NCBI GenBank assembly: GCA_035635555.1
Contig: DASQAT010000028.1
Coordinates: 133,885-197,884 of the forward strand
Length of the DNA stretch: 64,000 bases
DNA from: Candidatus Dormiibacterota bacterium
GTDB taxonomy: Bacteria; Acidobacteriota; Polarisedimenticolia; Gp22-AA2
Direction of reading: 5' to 3'
Numbering within the stretch: position 1 is the first letter of the stretch; every line of letters starts with the position of its first letter. This document shows, piece after piece, positions 3,285-13,654 of the stretch. The notes beneath the pieces were generated by a model, which searched no databases, had not been told where the DNA came from, and saw only the letters and a list, made by a program, of their open reading frames with translations. The position numbers and the translations under genes are program-made.

Positions 3285-3370
3285 TTATAGGTTTACACAT
3301 GGAACAGAGATGCTTGGCATATGGGCTGCAATGGAGGAGGCTCGACGTTCGTCGACAGTTGGGAGGGGGA

Positions 3371-4306
3371 ATGGCGCAGAAGCAGAGAACTCTGGCCCGG
3401 CCGATGGAAGTGGAAGGGGTCGGGCTGCACTCCGGCAGACGCGTCCGGCTGCGCGTGCTCCCGGCGGAGGCTGACTCCGGAATCGTCTTCCTCCGCACGG
3501 ACGAAGGGAACGCCGCAATCCCCGCCACGCACCGTCTTTTGAATGACGGCAATCTCTCGACGACGCTGTCCCGCGGGGCGCTTGCCGTCGCGACGGTCGA
3601 GCATCTTCTCTCGGCCCTGCAGGGGCTCTCGATCGACAACGTGCGGATCGAGCTGGATGGTCCCGAAGTGCCGATCCTCGACGGAAGCGCCCTGCCTTTC
3701 GTCACGCTGATTCGCGAGTCCGGTGTCCGCGCGCTCGGCAAGCCCCGCCGGTTCCTGACCCTGACCCGGCCGGTGCGTGTCAAGGCGGGGGAGAAGGAGA
3801 TCCTGGCTCTGCCGGACAACGTCTTCCAGGCGACCTACGCGATCGATTTCCCGCACACCGCGATCGGCTCCCAGACCGTGACGACCGAGGTGAGCGAGCA
3901 CACCTACGCCGACGCGATCGCCCCCGCGCGCACGTTCTGCCTGCTGCGCGACGTCGAGGCGATGCGCAGCTCCGGCCTGGCGCTGGGGGGATCGCTCGAC
4001 AACGCTCTCGTGGTCGGCGACGACGGCGTCCTGAACGGCTCGCTGCGCTTCCCCGACGAGTTCGCCCGTCACAAGGTCCTCGATCTGGTCGGCGACTTGG
4101 CGCTCCTCGGGGCGCCGATCCGCGCCCACGTGATCGCCTTCAAGGGCGGTCATCGGCTCCACGCCGCCCTGGTCGCCAAGATCATGTCCACGCGATCGGC
4201 CTGGTCTCTCGGCACCTCGGAGGACCGGCTGCCGGCCGCGCACCTGGCGGAGTTCGCGCACCTCAAGGACAGCCTGCTGCCGCATCCGGTCGGCCTGGCC
4301 GGGTAG
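3371..4306 (+). CDS. lpxC: UDP-3-O-acyl-N-acetylglucosamine deacetylase (LpxC)
   Basis: Zinc-dependent deacetylase, the committed step of lipid A synthesis in the cytoplasm. The 311-residue length fits the family. E77-H78 in TVEHLLSAL are the general-base and zinc-ligand pair, HKVLDLVGDLALLG supplies the second His and the Asp ligand, and the GGHRLHAALV segment near the C-terminus holds the catalytic His. I chose the ATG at 3371 because a GGGAGGGGGA ribosome site precedes it and the family signature starts about ten residues later; an in-frame ATG at 3299 would add 24 unrelated residues. It stands alone, 38 kb from lpxD-fabZ-lpxA. Confidence 0.95.
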   Translation: MAQKQRTLARPMEVEGVGLHSGRRVRLRVLPAEADSGIVFLRTDEGNAAIPATHRLLNDGNLSTTLSRGALAVATVEHLLSALQGLSIDNVRIELDGPEVPILDGSALPFVTLIRESGVRALGKPRRFLTLTRPVRVKAGEKEILALPDNVFQATYAIDFPHTAIGSQTVTTEVSEHTYADAIAPARTFCLLRDVEAMRSSGLALGGSLDNALVVGDDGVLNGSLRFPDEFARHKVLDLVGDLALLGAPIRAHVIAFKGGHRLHAALVAKIMSTRSAWSLGTSEDRLPAAHLAEFAHLKDSLLPHPVGLAG

Positions 4307-4422: not shown

Positions 4423-4992
4423 ATGAAGGCCAGCCTGCCTGCCCTCACCTTCTGGCTGATCTCCGGCCTGACTGCCGCTCCCGCGATCGGCAGCCCGGTC
4501 CTCACCCATCTCACTGCAGAAAGCGACGGTGACGCCTACAAGGCCTCCTGCCGCCTCGAGGGCGGCCTGACACCGGGCGTGCAAGAGGAGATCGCCGCGG
4601 GGCTCGCGACCACGATCGAGTACCGACTGCACCTCTACCGGCGCCGTCCGGCATTCTTCGATCAGCTCATCGTGAAGCGCCGCGTCCAGTGCACCGTGCG
4701 CTACGACACGCTGACGCAACAATACACCCTGACCCGGCGCATCGACGACGACCTGCAGGAGACGAAGGTCACCGACGATCCGGCCGCGATGCGCGAGTTC
4801 ATGACGTCGCTCCAGGCGGTGCCGCTGGTGAAGACCGGAACGCTGAAGGCGGGCGAGGACTATTACCTGAAGGCGAAGTCGACTCTCGGCCTCGTCTGGC
4901 GCTTCTACGTGATCCCGTGGCCGATGGACACCGACTGGGAGCGCGTCGCGATCGTGGCGGGGGGAGCGAAGAGCCTTGGCACCCAACCCTGA
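4423..4992 (+). CDS. DUF4390-type exported protein
   Basis: A 189-residue protein with an N-terminal signal-like hydrophobic stretch (residues 4-22, ending APAIGS) and a beta-rich remainder. The order of conserved pieces (an amphipathic strand after the signal, FDQLIVKRRVQCTVRYD, the DDLQETKVTDD turn, then the terminal LVWRFYVIPWP) matches the DUF4390 family, which commonly sits immediately before NtrY-like kinases. Here it also overlaps the kinase gene by 17 nt. A periplasmic helper or modulator of the sensor is a reasonable inference from this linkage, but no biochemical function is established from the sequence. Confidence 0.75.
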   Translation: MKASLPALTFWLISGLTAAPAIGSPVLTHLTAESDGDAYKASCRLEGGLTPGVQEEIAAGLATTIEYRLHLYRRRPAFFDQLIVKRRVQCTVRYDTLTQQYTLTRRIDDDLQETKVTDDPAAMREFMTSLQAVPLVKTGTLKAGEDYYLKAKSTLGLVWRFYVIPWPMDTDWERVAIVAGGAKSLGTQP

Positions 4993-7207
4993 CAGGCGGG
5001 AGACGCCGGCCTCGCGCATACGGGTCGACCGACTCGTGTGGACGAGCGTGCTGGCGCTCCTCGTGGTGTTCGTGGGCGGCTACGCCCTTCTGAGCAAGGC
5101 GACCAGCTTCTCCTGGGTGTACATCACCAACAAGGTCCTCCTGTGGTCGCTCCTGCTGATCAACATCCTCCTGATTCTGACGCTCCTGACGCTCCTGATG
5201 AGAAATCTCATCAAGGTGCTCGTGGAGCGACGTCGCGGGATCCTCGGCTCGCGCTTCCGCACCAAGCTCGTGTTCTCCCTTCTCCTCCTGTGGCTTGTGC
5301 CCTCGATGATCATCTTCTGGGCCGCGCTGCACCTCATCCAGAGGAGCGTCGACCGCTGGTTCAACGAGCCGATGGACCGTCTCACCGACGCCTCGCAGCA
5401 GATCGTCGAGACGTATTACGGCGAGGCCAAGACGCGGGGAGCCTCGTTCGCCCGCGAGGTGGCCCGGCGGCTGGAGGAGACGGGGGCCGCCCATCCCTCG
5501 GCGCGGGGCTCGGTGCACGAAGCGCTCGGCGGCCTCCTGCGCGAGTACCACCTCGACCTGGTGGCGCTCGACACGGGGCGCGATCCGCCCTACGTCGTGC
5601 TCGACCCTCACGTGCCGGCCACCGGCGATCTCCAGGAGATTCCCGCCAACCTGCGCCAGGGCGCCCTGCGGGGGGAGCCGTTCATCTGGATGTCCGACTA
5701 CCGGGGCGGCATGCTGATCCGATGCGGCCATCCGGTGCGCGACCCGCCCGGGGGAGAGCCGCGCGCCGTGGCGATCGTCGGCATCTACGTGCCGCGGGAC
5801 CTGCAGCGCCTCGCGTCGTACGTGTCGCGCAGCAACGAAGACTATCGACAAATCCGCGCCCAGAAGGTCGTCATCAAGAGGGTGTACGTGCTGGTGTTCG
5901 CCCTCATCACCCTCGTCGTGCTCTTCTCGGTGACCTGGATCGGGCTGTACCTGGCGCGGCGGATCACCGAGCCGATCCAGACGCTTTTGCAGGGAACGCG
6001 CGAGATCTCCTCAGGCAACCTGGATTACCGCGTCGAGGTCGACGCCGGGGACGAGCTCGGGATCCTGGTGGAGTCGTTCAACCGCATGACCTCGGAGCTC
6101 AGGGCCGGCAAGGAGACCATCGAGAAGCGCAACCTCGAGCTGTCGGCCAGCAACCGCGAGCTGGTGGAGCGCAGGCGCTACATCGAGACGCTGCTCAACA
6201 GCGTCACCGTGGGCGTCGTGTCGTGCGATCGAGACGGGCGCGTCACCACGCTGAACCAGGCGGCGCTCCGGCTGCTCGAGCTCGAGCGGGGGCCCGAGCC
6301 GGTCGGTCGTCCGCTGCCCGCGCTCCTGCCGCCGGAGGGTCGGGAGGCGATCGAACACCTGATCCGCGAGGTGTTCTCCTCGCGCGGCGAGTCGGCGGCC
6401 CTCGGGCTCGAGCTGTCGATCGGAGGCAGGACCTGTACCATCGCGGCCAGCGCCACATCGCTCCGGGACGAGACCGGGGATCCCCTCGGGGCCATCCTGG
6501 TCCTGGAGGACCTCACCGACCTGATGCGGGCGCAGAAGATCGCCGCCTGGCGGGAGGTGGCCCGGCGGCTGGCGCACGAGATCAAGAACCCGCTCACGCC
6601 GATCCAGCTGTCGGCGGAGCGCATCCGCAAGAAATACGCCGAGAAGGCGCGCGATCTCGACGACATCGTGGACGAGGGGACGGCGGCGATCGTGCGCGAG
6701 GTCGCGACTCTCAAGAATCTGGTGGACGAGTTCACGCGCTTCGCCCGTCTGCCGGCTCCGAACCGCGTGGCCACGAGCCTCGAGGACGTCATTTCCGCAT
6801 CGCTGTCGCTTTATAACGGCGTGCATTCGAGGGTGACGATCCAGCCGGTGTGCGACGCGGGGCTGCCCCGGGTCCTGCTCGATCCCGACCAGATGAAGCG
6901 CGTCCTGGTCAACCTCCTCGACAATGCCGTGGAGGCGATGGGAGGACAGGGGACGGTCACGATCGAGGCGCGCCGGGACCCTTCCGGCACCGTGCGCCTG
7001 GAGGTCGCGGACGACGGCCCCGGGATCCGGGAGGAGGACCGCGACCGGCTGTTCCTGCCCTATTTCTCGACCAAGAAGAAGGGGACGGGGCTCGGCCTCG
7101 CCATCGTCCACCGCATCGTCTCCGACCACCACGGACGCATCCACGTCGAGCACAACAAGCCGCGCGGGGCGCGCTTCGTCATCGAGCTGCCGGCCCCGGC
7201 GGCCTAG
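4976..7207 (+). CDS. ntrY: NtrY-like membrane sensor histidine kinase
   Basis: A 743-residue NtrY-type kinase. Four transmembrane helices are visible (about residues 19-40, 46-75, 97-120 and 302-330), with a periplasmic sensor segment between the third and fourth. A HAMP domain follows (about 330-385), then a PAS domain (about 400-520), the HisKA box LAHEIKNPLTP with phospho-acceptor H534, and the ATPase with DNAVEAMGG, DDGPGI and KGTGLGLAIV. The start is TTG, placed by the GGGGGGAGCG site 10 nt upstream and by overlap with the DUF4390 gene. It should phosphorylate the NtrX-like regulator encoded next. NtrY family members act in nitrogen, redox or envelope signalling; the signal here is unknown. 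Confidence 0.9.
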   Translation: MAPNPDRRETPASRIRVDRLVWTSVLALLVVFVGGYALLSKATSFSWVYITNKVLLWSLLLINILLILTLLTLLMRNLIKVLVERRRGILGSRFRTKLVFSLLLLWLVPSMIIFWAALHLIQRSVDRWFNEPMDRLTDASQQIVETYYGEAKTRGASFAREVARRLEETGAAHPSARGSVHEALGGLLREYHLDLVALDTGRDPPYVVLDPHVPATGDLQEIPANLRQGALRGEPFIWMSDYRGGMLIRCGHPVRDPPGGEPRAVAIVGIYVPRDLQRLASYVSRSNEDYRQIRAQKVVIKRVYVLVFALITLVVLFSVTWIGLYLARRITEPIQTLLQGTREISSGNLDYRVEVDAGDELGILVESFNRMTSELRAGKETIEKRNLELSASNRELVERRRYIETLLNSVTVGVVSCDRDGRVTTLNQAALRLLELERGPEPVGRPLPALLPPEGREAIEHLIREVFSSRGESAALGLELSIGGRTCTIAASATSLRDETGDPLGAILVLEDLTDLMRAQKIAAWREVARRLAHEIKNPLTPIQLSAERIRKKYAEKARDLDDIVDEGTAAIVREVATLKNLVDEFTRFARLPAPNRVATSLEDVISASLSLYNGVHSRVTIQPVCDAGLPRVLLDPDQMKRVLVNLLDNAVEAMGGQGTVTIEARRDPSGTVRLEVADDGPGIREEDRDRLFLPYFSTKKKGTGLGLAIVHRIVSDHHGRIHVEHNKPRGARFVIELPAPAA

Positions 7208-7232: not shown

Positions 7233-8600
<1,368 letters not shown>

Positions 8601-8616
8601 TATTTCTTCATTCGGC

Positions 8617-8649
8617 TTGACAACTCCTTATTCGTCTGTTAGTAAGATA
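8617..8649 (+). promoter_or_regulatory. Promoter/operator region of the Rrf2-family gene
   Basis: A perfect -35 TTGACA (8617-8622) is followed after 17 nt by TAGTAA (8640-8645), preceded by TGT as an extended -10; a second candidate -10, TAAGAT, lies at 8644-8649. The region is AT-rich compared with its surroundings. Rrf2 family genes are often autoregulated, so this is the natural place for an operator. Confidence 0.5.
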
Positions 8650-8678
8650 GGGTCGGTCAAGCGTCCAACGGGGGATAC

Positions 8679-9086
8679 GTGCAGCTGACCAAGGGCGTCG
8701 AGTACGGCATCGAAGGGATCCTGTACCTGGCGCGGCGGGACGATGGACACCCGGCGTTGATCCGAGAGATCTCGCGCGCCACGTCCATCCCGGAGACGTT
8801 CTTGTCGAAGATTTTCCAGAGGCTGGCGAGCAAGGGTCTCATCAGGTCGCGCCGCGGTTTCCGGGGCGGCTTCCGGCTGGCCCGCCCGGCCGGGCGGATC
8901 ACGCTGCGCGAGATCGTCGAGGCGCTGCAGGGTCCGATCGAGTTCCACCGCTGCCTGGATCATCTCAGGGAGCGCGGGCGTCGCCACCGTTGTCATGTCC
9001 GAAGGGTGTTCCGGAAAGTCCAGAGGAAGGTCGCCTCCATCCTGGAGCAGACCACCCTGGAGGACATCCTGCAGGCGACTCTATAA
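8679..9086 (+). CDS. Rrf2-family transcriptional regulator
   Basis: A 135-residue Rrf2-type repressor/activator with the standard N-terminal winged helix: LTKGVEYGIEGILYLARR, then the recognition helix ETFLSKIFQRLASKGLIRSRRGFRGGF. IscR-like Rrf2 proteins hold a [2Fe-2S] cluster with three closely spaced Cys and a His. Here only C92 and C105 (RCLDH... RHRCH) are present, with several nearby His, so a cluster ligand set is possible but not the IscR standard. Start is GTG with a GGGGA site upstream. It lies directly before the PHP and radical SAM genes, so regulation of iron-sulfur enzyme expression by iron, redox or nitric oxide is a reasonable hypothesis. Confidence 0.88.
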   Translation: MQLTKGVEYGIEGILYLARRDDGHPALIREISRATSIPETFLSKIFQRLASKGLIRSRRGFRGGFRLARPAGRITLREIVEALQGPIEFHRCLDHLRERGRRHRCHVRRVFRKVQRKVASILEQTTLEDILQATL

Positions 9087-9106
9087 CTCCGCAGGAGGGC
9101 GCTCCA

Positions 9107-10048
9107 TTGCGGTCTTTCGGACCAACCGGGTCTGATTCGTCCCGTACCGTCGCCGGCGAGGCGGCGCTGTGCCGTGCCGACCTCCACGTGCACACGCTTC
9201 ACTCCGGGACGGGTCACCTGCGGATGCCGCGGCTGCGCCGGGGCCTGCCCGATCCGGGACTCGTGTACCGGGCCGCCCGTGCCCGCGGCATGGACTTCGT
9301 AACCTTCACCGATCTCGACACGATCGACGGCTGCCTGTCGTTCCTGGACCGCCATCCGGACGCCGGCGATTTCTTCGTTTCGGAGGAGGTTCGGGCGGTC
9401 GAGCCGCGCACGCGCGCCGTCGTGAGCGTCCTGGTCTACGACCTGACCGAAGCGCAGCACAGGGACCTTCGGGCGCTCCGGGGTGACGTTCGCGACGTCG
9501 CCTCCTACGTGCAGAGCGCGGGCCTCCTGGCGTCCCTCGGGTCGGTCCTGGAGGTCCTCGAGGCGGGAGGATCGGAAGGGACCGTGCGGGATCTCATCCG
9601 TCTGTTCGACTGCTTCGAAATCAGGAACGGCGCGGAGGACCGGACGTGCAACGAGCTGATGTCGCGCCTGGTGCAGGAGACCACCGCGGGTCGCGGCTTC
9701 GGCGTGACGGCCGGCAGCAACGCCCACACGTCCGGGCGGGTGGGACGCACCTCGACGGTCGCGCGGGCCCGCGACCGGGCCGGATTCCTCGAGGCGGTGC
9801 GCCGGCGCCGGACCTGGGCGGCGGGGAGCCACGGGGATGTCTGGGGCTCATTCGCCGAGGTGCTGGGGAGGGCTCCTCTGCACCTCTCCGCGGCCCCGCT
9901 CCTCGGCCACGCCGTGCGGCGCGCGCGCAGGAACGCGGGCGCCCGGCGGGCGAGACGACGGCTCGATACCATCGATGTGGAAAAATTCCAGCAGAAGGCA
10001 CGATCGTTCCAGATCACGGGCCCGCGTAGTGAACCCGGGACCCGATGA
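9107..10048 (+). CDS. PHP-domain protein with incomplete metal site
   Basis: A 313-residue protein of the PHP (polymerase and histidinol phosphatase) superfamily, usually metal-dependent phosphoesterases. The first motif DLHVHTLHSG is intact (H27, H29). The second, usually TDHD, reads TDLD (68-71); the late GSDAH motif reads GSNAH (203-207). So some metal ligands are changed and activity may differ. The C-terminal 80 residues are basic and Arg-rich with no PHP counterpart. The start is TTG at 9107, chosen because GGAGGG lies 7 nt before it and this places the gene after the Rrf2 stop. It precedes the radical SAM gene; substrate unknown. Confidence 0.75.
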   Translation: MRSFGPTGSDSSRTVAGEAALCRADLHVHTLHSGTGHLRMPRLRRGLPDPGLVYRAARARGMDFVTFTDLDTIDGCLSFLDRHPDAGDFFVSEEVRAVEPRTRAVVSVLVYDLTEAQHRDLRALRGDVRDVASYVQSAGLLASLGSVLEVLEAGGSEGTVRDLIRLFDCFEIRNGAEDRTCNELMSRLVQETTAGRGFGVTAGSNAHTSGRVGRTSTVARARDRAGFLEAVRRRRTWAAGSHGDVWGSFAEVLGRAPLHLSAAPLLGHAVRRARRNAGARRARRRLDTIDVEKFQQKARSFQITGPRSEPGTR

Positions 10049-10096
10049 GGCGCGCTGAACCGTCCGTGGGAGTCGGTACATCCAACTGGGGCGCCC

Positions 10097-10147
10097 ATGA
10101 ACCTCGACACACAACCGACCGATGTTTCTAGAGAGGAGCGCACATGA
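10097..10147 (+). CDS. Possible 16-residue leader ORF overlapping the radical SAM start
   Basis: An ATG with a GGGGC stretch upstream opens a 16-codon frame (begins MNLDTQPTD, ends REERT) whose TGA overlaps the radical SAM ATG as ATGA. The ribosome site of the radical SAM gene (GAGAGGAG) lies inside it. It could be a translational-coupling leader peptide. It is short enough to be chance, and no known peptide family is recognised. Confidence 0.3.
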   Translation: MNLDTQPTDVSREERT

Positions 10148-12201
10148 GCCAGGCTGTGGCCCGGATCGATGAGAGGACCGAAGTCGGGTTGGAAGCGCGC
10201 CCGGTTCCCCCGGCGCCCCGACCGGCGGCGGCGCCTCAGGCGCCGGCCCCGAAGCGGGGAGCGACGCGCTATCTCCGCCCGCACGTCGTAGCGGGCTCGC
10301 TGCTCAAGGCGGCGGCCCACTTGACCTGGCACGCTTTCCAGGCGGTGAACACGCGCCTGCCCTACGGCGTGAAGCAGCCGAAGTGGGCTCCCGCGCCGCT
10401 GATGAAGAGCAAGGACCGGACGTTCCCGCAGCTGGGCTTTCCCAGGGAGACCGACTCGCTGTGCCCCCAGTGCGTCAAGGACGTGCGCGAGAGCATCGTC
10501 CAGGGGGAGAGCGACTGGCGCGTCCTCATCGACGGCAAGCCGGGGGAGATCAAGGCGAAGATCGTCGAGCGCGGCAACCAGATCTGGATGGAGAAGGACT
10601 GCCCTCGCCACGGCCACTTCGAGGATCTCATGGCCATGGATGCCGACTTCCTGCGGCGCATGGAGCGGCTGTACCCGGGTCGGGACTTCCGCATGGCGCC
10701 CGATCCGTTCCACAACCACGGCTCCTCCACCATCAAGTATGGCCGCGGCGCGGTCCTGACCGTCGACCTGACGAACCGCTGCAACATGATGTGCAACCCC
10801 TGCTTCATGGACGCCAACCAGGTCGGGTACGTGCACGAGCTGACGTGGGACGACGTCCGCCAGATCCTCGACAACTCGATCAACGTGAAGCCGCACCGGC
10901 AGATGTCGGTGCAGTTCTCGGGCGGCGAGCCGACCCTGTCGCCGTATTTCCTCGACGCGGTCGCCTACTCGCGCAAGGTCGGCTACAACAGCGTGCAGGC
11001 GGCGACCAACGGCATCCGGTTCGCGCAGGACCTCGACTTCGCGAAGCGCGCCAAGGCGGCCGGGCTGCGGCTGGTCTACCTCCAGTTCGACGGAGTCACG
11101 AACGAGGCCAACAACCACCGCGGCGTCGGCAACCTGTTCGACGTCAAGAAGCGGGCCATCCAGAACCTGAAGGCGGCCGGCATCGACGTCACCCTGGTCA
11201 CGACGATCGTCAACACCATCAACGATCAGCAGGTGGGGCCGATCATCCAGTTCGCCATCGACAACATCGACAAGATCAACGCCGTGTCGTTCCAGCCGGT
11301 GTCCTTCACCGGGCGGGACGAGGACATCGACGACGAGTCCCGCCGGAAGCAGCGCTACACCCTGTCGCACCTGGCGCACGACGTCAAGAAGCAGCTCGGC
11401 ATCACCGAGCCGCTGCGCGACTGGTATCCGCTGTCGGCCTCCGGCCCCTTCTCGGACCTGCGCGACCAGCTCGAGGGGGCCGACGCGGAATGGGGCTCCC
11501 TGAAGTGCGGCTGCCACCCCAACTGCGGCGTCGGCACGATGCTCCTGGTCAACCAGACGAACAAGACCGCCGTGCCCTTCCCGCAGATCCTGGACACCGA
11601 CCGGCTGCTCGTGGATCTCAAGACCATCAACGACACCTGCCGCGCGAAGCCGGTGACGGTCTTCCAGTTCGTGCTGTCGGTGCTGCGCAACGCGCGTTTC
11701 TCCGAGATGCCGGAGGGCATGAACCTCTGGGAGATGATGAAGATCATCGACGGCCACAACGGCGGCAAGCTCGGCCTGGCCGAGAAGTCCCGCTACAACT
11801 GGCGCATCATGATGGTCGCGGGGATGTGGTTCCAGGATCTGTTCAACTACGACTTCCGCCGCACGGAGATGTGCATCATCCCCTACGCGACGCAGGTGGG
11901 AGAGGTCTCGTTCTGCGCCTACAACACCGGCGTGGGCTGGCGGCAGATCGTCGAGAAGATGTTCTCCACCCACAGCACCGCCCAGTGGTTCAAGGAGAAG
12001 GGGCGCCATCCGATCTTCGCCGCGGGCAAGCACGTTCCGCTCGGGCCGTCGTCGGACAGCGCCCAGCCGCTGCCGGTCGTCTCCGAGATCCACGTCCAGG
12101 GGCGGGAGACTCCGGTCGTTCCCGCCGTCTCCCCGGCGGCCCTGCAGGGCTCATCCTCCGAAGGGACCGCCGCCTGCGGCACGGGGTGCGGCTGCCACTG
12201 A
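10144..12201 (+). CDS. Tetraether-lipid-synthase-like radical SAM protein
   Basis: A 685-residue radical SAM enzyme. The SAM-cluster motif is CNMMCNPC (C213, C217, C220; CX3CX2C) followed by a GGEPT glycine motif (260-264). Before it, LCPQC (107-110) and DCPRHGHFE (C153) form the N-terminal Cys set typical of the MJ0619/Tes group, which binds a rubredoxin-like iron. After it, KCGCHPNCG (455-462), C577 and C591 could hold auxiliary clusters. Tes couples lipid tails to make membrane-spanning tetraethers in archaea; bacterial relatives are linked to membrane-spanning lipids. Extra parts are an 80-residue Pro/Ala-rich N-terminus and a Cys-rich tail ending CGTGCGCH. No B12 or SPASM domain is evident. 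The family is likely; the exact product is inference. Confidence 0.72.
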   Translation: MSQAVARIDERTEVGLEARPVPPAPRPAAAPQAPAPKRGATRYLRPHVVAGSLLKAAAHLTWHAFQAVNTRLPYGVKQPKWAPAPLMKSKDRTFPQLGFPRETDSLCPQCVKDVRESIVQGESDWRVLIDGKPGEIKAKIVERGNQIWMEKDCPRHGHFEDLMAMDADFLRRMERLYPGRDFRMAPDPFHNHGSSTIKYGRGAVLTVDLTNRCNMMCNPCFMDANQVGYVHELTWDDVRQILDNSINVKPHRQMSVQFSGGEPTLSPYFLDAVAYSRKVGYNSVQAATNGIRFAQDLDFAKRAKAAGLRLVYLQFDGVTNEANNHRGVGNLFDVKKRAIQNLKAAGIDVTLVTTIVNTINDQQVGPIIQFAIDNIDKINAVSFQPVSFTGRDEDIDDESRRKQRYTLSHLAHDVKKQLGITEPLRDWYPLSASGPFSDLRDQLEGADAEWGSLKCGCHPNCGVGTMLLVNQTNKTAVPFPQILDTDRLLVDLKTINDTCRAKPVTVFQFVLSVLRNARFSEMPEGMNLWEMMKIIDGHNGGKLGLAEKSRYNWRIMMVAGMWFQDLFNYDFRRTEMCIIPYATQVGEVSFCAYNTGVGWRQIVEKMFSTHSTAQWFKEKGRHPIFAAGKHVPLGPSSDSAQPLPVVSEIHVQGRETPVVPAVSPAALQGSSSEGTAACGTGCGCH

Positions 12202-12229: not shown

Positions 12230-13654
12230 ATGAGACGCACCAAGATCATCGCCACGCTCGGTCCGGCCACGGCGACACCCACGGCCCTCACGGGGCTGCT
12301 GCGCGCCGGGGTCGATGTCGTGCGCCTCAACATGTCCCACGGGGACCACGCCGCCCACGCCCGGGCGATCGCGACGACCCGCCGCGCCGCGGCGGACCTG
12401 GGACGGCCGGTCGCCGTCCTGGCGGACCTGCAGGGATCCAAGGGGCGCGTCGGCTCGCTGGCCGGCGGCCGGCCGCTCGTCCTGCGGCGCGGTGACGTCG
12501 TCACGCTCACGCCCCGGAGGGTTCCCGGCCGCCCCGGGCTCATCCCGACCTCCCACCGCGGCCTCGCCCGCGACGTGCGGCGGGGCGATCCGATCCTGCT
12601 CGACGACGGCCGCATCGAGCTGATCGTCCTGCGCAGCCGCGGGCAGGACGTGGTCGTCCGCGTCTTAGCCGGCGGTCTCCTCCACGAGCACAAGGGGATG
12701 AACCTGCCCGGTACCGATCTCACCGGCGGCGCCCTCACCTCCAAGGACCGCGCCGACCTGGAATTCGCTCTGCGGCATGGGGTCGACTACCTGGCGCTGT
12801 CGTTCGTGCGCTCCGCCGGGGATGTGGAGCGCGTTCGGCGCCTGCTGGGACGGCGGGGGAGACGCGTGCCGCTCATCGCCAAGCTCGAGGTGCGCCGCGC
12901 CGTGGAGCGGCTCCCCGAGATCCTGCATGCGGCCGACGGCGTGATGGTGGCGCGCGGAGACCTCGGGGTCGAAGTGCCGCTCGAGCGGGTCCCGGTGCTG
13001 CAGAAGTGGATCCTGCAGGAGGCCAACCGCGCGGGTGTGATCGCCATCACGGCGACCCAGATGCTCGAGTCGATGGTCGAGCAGCCGCGCCCGACCCGCG
13101 CCGAGGCGTCGGACGTCGCGAACGCCATCTTCGACGGGACCGACGTGGTCATGCTGTCCGCCGAGACCGCCTCGGGAAAATTTCCCCTGCGGGCGGTTGC
13201 GGTGATGGATCGCATCATTCGCGAGGCCGAGAAGAGCGGGTTGCACTGGCCGGCGCGGAGCGCCGGGCCTCCCCCGGGGGCCGGTCTGGAGGTGCGCGCC
13301 GTGGCGCACGCGGCGGTCGACGCCGCCCGCGAGTGGGGGGCGCGCGCCATCGTGGTCTACACCCAGACCGGCGAGACCGCCCGCGTCCTGTCCAAGCTGA
13401 GGCCGCCCTGCCCGATCATGGCGCTCGCCCCCACGGAGCAGGCGCGGCGACGCATGGCCCTGTGGTGGGGTGTCCTGCCCCTGGCGATGCGCTTCTCGCG
13501 CAGCACCGACCGGATGCTCCGGGACGGCGAGCGTGCTCTCCTCGCCGCGCGCCTCTTGAAGAGGGGCGCCCGGGTCGTCGTGGTGTCGGGCACGTCGCCC
13601 CAGGCCGGCGCGACGAACCTCATGAAGCTGCACCGTCTCGGGGAAGGGCGCTGA
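12230..13654 (+). CDS. pyk: Pyruvate kinase
   Basis: A 474-residue glycolytic enzyme converting phosphoenolpyruvate and ADP to pyruvate and ATP. The barrel starts with RRTKIIATLGPAT and VVRLNMSHGDH. The substrate/metal segment LIAKLEVRRAVERL aligns with the catalytic Lys-Glu motif (IAKIE in most members), and MVARGDLGVEVPLE and TATQMLESM are the pyruvate kinase signatures. The C-terminal domain begins at about residue 350. It lies 28 nt after the radical SAM gene on the same strand, so co-transcription is possible although the functions look unrelated. It converges with pheA, 7 nt apart. Confidence 0.95.
   Translation: MRRTKIIATLGPATATPTALTGLLRAGVDVVRLNMSHGDHAAHARAIATTRRAAADLGRPVAVLADLQGSKGRVGSLAGGRPLVLRRGDVVTLTPRRVPGRPGLIPTSHRGLARDVRRGDPILLDDGRIELIVLRSRGQDVVVRVLAGGLLHEHKGMNLPGTDLTGGALTSKDRADLEFALRHGVDYLALSFVRSAGDVERVRRLLGRRGRRVPLIAKLEVRRAVERLPEILHAADGVMVARGDLGVEVPLERVPVLQKWILQEANRAGVIAITATQMLESMVEQPRPTRAEASDVANAIFDGTDVVMLSAETASGKFPLRAVAVMDRIIREAEKSGLHWPARSAGPPPGAGLEVRAVAHAAVDAAREWGARAIVVYTQTGETARVLSKLRPPCPIMALAPTEQARRRMALWWGVLPLAMRFSRSTDRMLRDGERALLAARLLKRGARVVVVSGTSPQAGATNLMKLHRLGEGR

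Follow-up and report, generated by a model that had tools for sequence, protein, structure and literature searches.

The question raised by this locus is whether a bacterium keeps a dedicated, regulated set of genes for joining the tails of its membrane lipids. The window (the whole stretch of DNA analysed, 64,000 nucleotides of contig DASQAT010000028.1) comes from a soil acidobacterium with a genome of 4.28 Mb in 59 contigs. Between 8617 and 12201, the initial annotation had placed an Rrf2 regulator, a PHP-like protein and a radical S-adenosylmethionine (SAM) protein resembling tetraether synthase (Tes, gene tes). All three genes are present, as open reading frames with domain matches:

8679-9086, + strand: rrf2 regulator, GTG start, 135 residues (Pfam PF02082, E = 8.8e-35)
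9107-10048, + strand: php, a PHP / CehA-McbA-like metallohydrolase, TTG start, apparently degenerate (TDLDT, GSNAH, SLGS; profile matches)
10144-12201, + strand: Tes-related radical SAM protein of the window-type subfamily defined below, 685 residues (sequence, profile and structure matches)

The explanation proposed here, which is considered fairly probable as a whole, is that the 10144-12201 protein would be a tail-to-tail lipid-coupling radical SAM enzyme, with rrf2 and php co-transcribed and Rrf2 serving as a local repressor.

A relation of the radical SAM protein to Tes is nearly certain. The best NCBIfam model is that of Tes, NF045702 (345 bits, 4.6e-103), spanning residues 103-609, followed by TrsS with 224 bits; the equivalog cut-off of NF045702, 450 bits, is not reached. 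MJ0619 (7TOL) is the only strong sequence match among solved structures (6.6e-66). An AlphaFold2 model, built from 41 sequences (pLDDT 75.5, pTM 0.81), has 7TOM as its only full-length structural match, with a Z-score of 39.1 over 474 residues, a root-mean-square deviation of 3.1 and a Foldseek value of 7.1e-33. The runner-up is MoaA, with a Z-score of 18.9. The model is poor at residues 214-231 (the radical SAM cluster loop) and at both tails; therefore, it was not used to infer cluster geometry. Profile, sequence and fold thus bear out the resemblance to Tes that had been noticed, and maturases of ribosomally synthesized and post-translationally modified peptides (RiPPs) are not the best match.

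A SPASM-type RiPP maturase, or a heme or cofactor maturase, is very improbable here. Models of NirJ, AhbC/D, PqqE, mycofactocin and SkfB do produce weak, sub-threshold matches, but these span the SAM barrel only, whereas the Tes match covers the far longer segment given above; in structure, the comparison stands at Z 39 for GDGT-MAS versus 15 for SkfB. A precursor peptide gene was not noticed, no search having been aimed at one. With matches that are partial and weak only, the maturase identity was rejected.

How closely the protein follows archaeal Tes can be read from its metal sites:

10462-10611, + strand: rubredoxin-like metal site C107-X2-C110-X42-C153-X2-H156, equivalent to C9/C12/C33/H36 of 7TOL
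10693-10719, + strand: site at which archaeal Tes has its N-terminal auxiliary [4Fe-4S] cluster; the window protein reads MAPDPFHNH (residues 184-192), without Cys
10780-10803, + strand: radical SAM cluster motif C213-X3-C217-X2-C220
11506-11526, + strand: CGCHPNC, in which C461 is a C-terminal auxiliary cluster ligand by alignment, and C455 and C457 are extra invariant Cys of the subfamily
11824-11916, + strand: M561 (equivalent to the labile Met439), C577 and C591, which complete the C-terminal auxiliary cluster site by alignment to 7TOL

Every radical SAM motif named in the initial annotation was found: LCPQC (C107, C110), DCPRHG (C153, H156), CX3CX2C and the CHPNC segment (C455, C457 and C461 of CGCHPNC).

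Acidobacteriota carry two kinds of Tes homologue: the window-type, i.e., the Tes-related subfamily that includes the 10144-12201 protein, and the archaeal-type, which is the other. Orthologues of the window protein are 52-90% identical across the phylum. In the alignment, the radical SAM cysteines C213, C217 and C220 are invariant in the window-type subfamily, as are C455 and C457 near the C-terminal cluster, and C461, C577, C591 and M561 are invariant in 41 window-type sequences. The rubredoxin-like C-X2-C...C-X2-H site is present, with the C33 and H36 columns (7TOL numbering) invariant; its spacer measures 42 residues in 153 of 159 window-type proteins, against 20 in archaeal Tes. The N-terminal auxiliary cluster is different: its ligands (archaeal C73, C77, C80 and a His) have no counterpart in the window protein, and 158 of the 159 window-type proteins have no Cys within the 36 residues preceding NRCN, while all four ligands are kept in 17 of 17 aligned archaeal-type homologues. 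The remaining ligands derived from Lloyd et al. (C33, H36, the three radical SAM Cys, the three C-terminal Cys and Met439) are all invariant; the three C-terminal Cys are called ligands by alignment, as PMC9433317 is cited for Met439 only.

All 53 sampled window-type sequences form one clade (support 0.86), in a tree with one archaeal sequence and a weak root. The window protein is hence placed in a sister subfamily of archaeal Tes, predicted from the sequence to hold one iron-sulfur cluster fewer: two [4Fe-4S] clusters plus a mononuclear Fe, where MJ0619 has three plus one. With archaeal Tes/GDGT-MAS (MJ0619, 7TOL/7TOM, NF045702), it shares the fold, the rubredoxin-like site, the radical SAM motif, the C-terminal cluster ligands and Met439; it differs in the absent N-terminal cluster ligands, the longer spacer, the two extra invariant Cys, a conserved N-terminal extension and the score below the cut-off. 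The acidobacterial archaeal-type Tes (L228-L244), from the same phylum and superfamily, exceeds that cut-off (474-619 bits) and keeps the N-terminal cluster. Membership of the Tes group, as first proposed, thus holds for the motifs, the fold and the other ligands, and fails for the N-terminal auxiliary cluster, which is gone subfamily-wide, and for the NCBI cut-off. Since the protein misses one defining cluster and stays under the curated cut-off, it is not claimed as Tes proper; the statement that it works like Tes is kept.

Both ends of the protein have features of their own. At the C-terminus (12172-12201), a disordered linker leads into the tail CGTGCGCH, of which variants (GCGCH, GGCH) are kept in the window's order and in family f7 and were not seen elsewhere; it is possibly a swinging Cys tail. 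An amphipathic N-terminal helix was considered as a membrane anchor, and the claim was dropped, the hydrophobic moments being modest (0.13-0.34).

By analogy with the archaeal enzyme, the window protein likely couples the tails of iso-branched lipids. A 5'-deoxyadenosyl radical generated at C213/C217/C220 would abstract hydrogen from the terminal methyl group of a first iso-branched acyl (or alkyl) chain. For the carbon radical left behind, the predicted holding place is a sulfur of the C-terminal auxiliary cluster (C461/C577/C591, with the labile M561); another SAM turnover would then activate the second chain, and the C-C bond would close. Two iso-C15 chains joined in this manner would yield 13,16-dimethyloctacosanedioic (iso-diabolic) acid, on which acidobacterial membrane-spanning lipids are built. 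The scheme is borrowed from the archaeal enzyme, whose mechanism and phospholipid binding are treated in PMC9433317 (Lloyd et al.). The PlsA/Ger domain PF09989 was detected in none of seven genomes, with T. maritima as the positive control and the elb route not searched; since no PlsA/Ger homologue was found, an ester-linked rather than an ether-linked product is suggested. The same tail coupling has been proposed for Mss of Thermotogota and Bacillota, compared by description only, which is reported to share the catalytic architecture of Tes (PMC13274423); its usual partner, Ger/PlsA, is the protein not found in the window genome.

The subfamily is widespread. Window-type proteins occur in many acidobacterial families, with named carriers including gp2, gp4, gp6, gp7, gp18, gp22 and Aridibacter, in Pyrinomonadaceae and in one metagenome-assembled genome of Terriglobia. 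The closest Tes to that of the window belongs to a metagenome-assembled genome labelled Acidobacteria gp22 (89% identity), which marks the source organism as an uncultured Gp22 acidobacteriote, and 17 of 41 genomes of the window's class have a window-type match, one of them a fragment only. Outside the phylum, they are common in Myxococcota (L128-L164), including the cultured Sorangium (L153, L174) and Minicystis (L170), where, to our knowledge, iso-diabolic acid has not been established. In Acidobacteria, iso-diabolic acid is recorded from subdivisions 1, 3, 4 and 6 (PMC13274423), with which the distribution of the window type is compatible at the subdivision level.

The myxobacterial occurrence would fit a Tes-family enzyme performing some other radical reaction on a hydrophobic substrate, such as internal cross-linking, dehydrogenation, sulfur insertion or hydroxylation of a lipid or quinone, in place of the joining of two chains, and the related enzyme Gms does form a different C-C bond (PMC11186832). 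Such a reaction is nevertheless quite unlikely, as the ligands of the substrate-holding cluster of archaeal Tes are all invariant and the subfamily is present in groups known for iso-diabolic acid. Tail coupling is the preferred reading, and the gene neighbourhood has to be considered next to it. In the window, the flanking genes are as follows:

3299-4306, + strand: lpxC (lipid A deacetylase), which opens the syntenic string, upstream of tes across the order (Pfam LpxC, 2.3e-103)
4423-4992, + strand: DUF4390 protein, its position kept in all Gp22-order loci examined (Pfam PF14334, 1.3e-19)
4976-7207, + strand: NtrY-like membrane histidine kinase, in conserved synteny (HATPase_c, HisKA, HAMP, PAS, NtrY_N)
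7233-8600, + strand: NtrX-like sigma-54 response regulator, adjoining rrf2 on the upstream side (Response_reg, Sigma54_activat, HTH_8)
12230-13654, + strand: pyruvate kinase gene, downstream of the radical SAM gene

The order lpxC-DUF4390-ntrY-ntrX-rrf2-(php)-tes is kept in the window's order, in every locus with enough flank. Compared with the known NtrY/NtrX pair, the window pair has the same domain make-up and the NtrY_N match, but it lies within the lpxC string, with tes downstream. In two further families of the class, Rrf2 directly precedes tes, at 64 and 100 bp, in different surroundings, which bears out the conserved neighbourhood looked for. One genome (G271; L045, L257) has two tes copies, and each of them is immediately preceded by a separate Rrf2 gene whose Cys motif is intact. 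The genomes here contain 2-4 Rrf2 genes each; hence, the probability that rrf2 and tes adjoin by chance is estimated at roughly one in a thousand for each lineage. The tes-linked Rrf2s split into two separate clades in a tree, pointing to a linkage that is either repeated or very old, and orthologues of the window Rrf2 (E <= 1e-37) turned up exclusively in genomes of the window's order that carry tes.

The archaeal-type Tes meets the same neighbours. In G101 (L256, 6279-13195), which belongs to yet another family, it directly follows lpxC-DUF4390-ntrY-ntrX, without rrf2 and php. Homologues of php, of which each genome has one or two, sit immediately before it in two genomes of family f14 and lie two genes upstream in a third (L264-L266). 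In L264 (2267-6609), php and the archaeal-type tes are followed by NADH dehydrogenase genes, as read by eye, and in L265, a B12 radical SAM gene stands between the two. With php and ntrX adjoining the archaeal-type tes too, one gene set recurs around either Tes type. In another lineage (L047-L051, L119, L122, L126), the window-type tes has a php homologue on the opposite strand, 4.5-7.6 kb upstream.

It may still be that the arrangement is incidental, tes having landed behind an unrelated envelope two-component operon with rrf2 and php as passengers. No Rrf2 was found in the fetched flank of any of the 113 distinct tes loci outside the class, php follows ntrX in G071 with tes elsewhere in the genome, and the local order is kept mainly inside one order. 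This explanation is judged unlikely, given that Rrf2 also adjoins tes in two other families, where the surroundings differ, and at both copies of G271, with a separate Rrf2 clade; moreover, PHP, with its low copy number, abuts the archaeal-type tes in another family, and ntrX does so in G101. Around tes, a lipid-gene cluster conserved phylum-wide was not found, and the neighbours vary by lineage.

In the favoured explanation, rrf2, php and tes probably form one transcript, started at a promoter of their own downstream of the lpxC-DUF4390-ntrYX envelope/two-component string, and Rrf2 is probably a local repressor of tes:

8617-8645, + strand: promoter of rrf2-php-tes, TTGACA at 8617-8622, 17-nt spacer and extended -10 TGT-TAGTAA at 8637-8645 (aligned footprint)

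The promoter proposed initially is supported by a footprint between ntrX and rrf2: in 10 of 10 compared loci, from two families, the region upstream of rrf2 keeps TTGAC[A/T], the 17-nt spacer and an extended -10 (TGnTAnnAn), while the flanking bases diverge. A strict consensus promoter scan gave no match at 8617, because the site departs from the -10 rule of the scan. Beyond the promoter boxes, the alignment showed no recognisable conserved dyad that could be a shared Rrf2 operator. A weak terminator-like site precedes rrf2 (8581-8596), with 1.8 such sites expected by chance.

The regulator scores well above the Pfam gathering cut-off (120.2 bits versus 30), and control of tes by Rrf2 is plausible from the gene arrangement. 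Like IscR, RirA, NsrR and CymR, it has a full-length Rrf2 domain, but it falls below the cut-offs of those four models and keeps only C92 and C105 of the three-Cys cluster motif. The sister-family Rrf2 has no Cys of the motif, G071 has also lost it, and the G271 pair alone keeps it; nearly all other full-length Rrf2 paralogues of the same genomes retain the three Cys. Oxygen effects on branched glycerol dialkyl glycerol tetraethers (brGDGTs) differ among acidobacteria (PMC13274423, PMC10087280), so that an O2 switch of tes is conceivable, though the window Rrf2 does not indicate one. In the library searched, no paper joining Rrf2 with tetraether lipids was found.

The PHP protein matches PHP_C with 22.5 bits (cut-off 21.3) and CehA/McbA with 29 bits, below the cut-off of the latter; no solved structure was related to it at E <= 0.001. 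In the window's genus, DLHVH is kept, while TDHDT has become TDLDT and GSDAH has become GSNAH, and the protein is possibly a pseudoenzyme there, as judged from these residues. Intact homologues adjoin tes in the sister family and in L264. Two members of the window's family lack php; degenerate and sometimes absent, it is not essential there. The PHP protein first noted is present, and its gene recurs beside tes; in the window's family, metal-ligand residues have been lost and the gene is not universal.

The redox- or iron-regulated character first claimed for the locus is weakened by the incomplete Cys motif of the window Rrf2 and its complete loss in the sister family. Several points weigh against the proposed explanation. 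PHP is degenerate in the window genome, and outside these classes, no partner gene for lipid synthesis turns up repeatedly next to tes. We know of no lipid analysis for the window's lineage. Finally, lipid coupling has yet to be demonstrated for any bacterial Tes homologue (PMC11868695).

A dedicated operon was expected to be new. That Acidobacteria have Tes homologues, and that these might produce membrane-spanning lipids, had already been published (PMC8941075, PMC10087280), and bacterial Tes homologues in general had been proposed as makers of such lipids (PMC8941075); what is new is the definition of the window-type subfamily and the recurring Rrf2/PHP/NtrYX neighbourhood. A broader proposal can only be made tentatively: Acidobacteriota and Myxococcota may have a separate tail-coupling subfamily without the N-terminal cluster that makes iso-diabolic lipids, placed in one class under Rrf2 control behind NtrYX, with PHP recurring as a partner of either Tes type.

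The brGDGT lipids serve as proxies of soil temperature and pH. Acidobacteria are suspected to be a main source of them, and the acidobacterial enzyme that couples fatty-acyl tails is still unproven. A defined subfamily in cultured genera (Aridibacter, Sorangium, Minicystis), together with candidate regulators and a partner hydrolase, brings the tail-coupling question within reach of gene deletions and assays. The locus would also offer a genetic handle on the growth conditions that switch membrane-spanning lipids on, a matter of relevance to the interpretation of the proxies. This bacterial subfamily and its recurring neighbours are thus a clear target for learning how bacteria build climate-proxy lipids.

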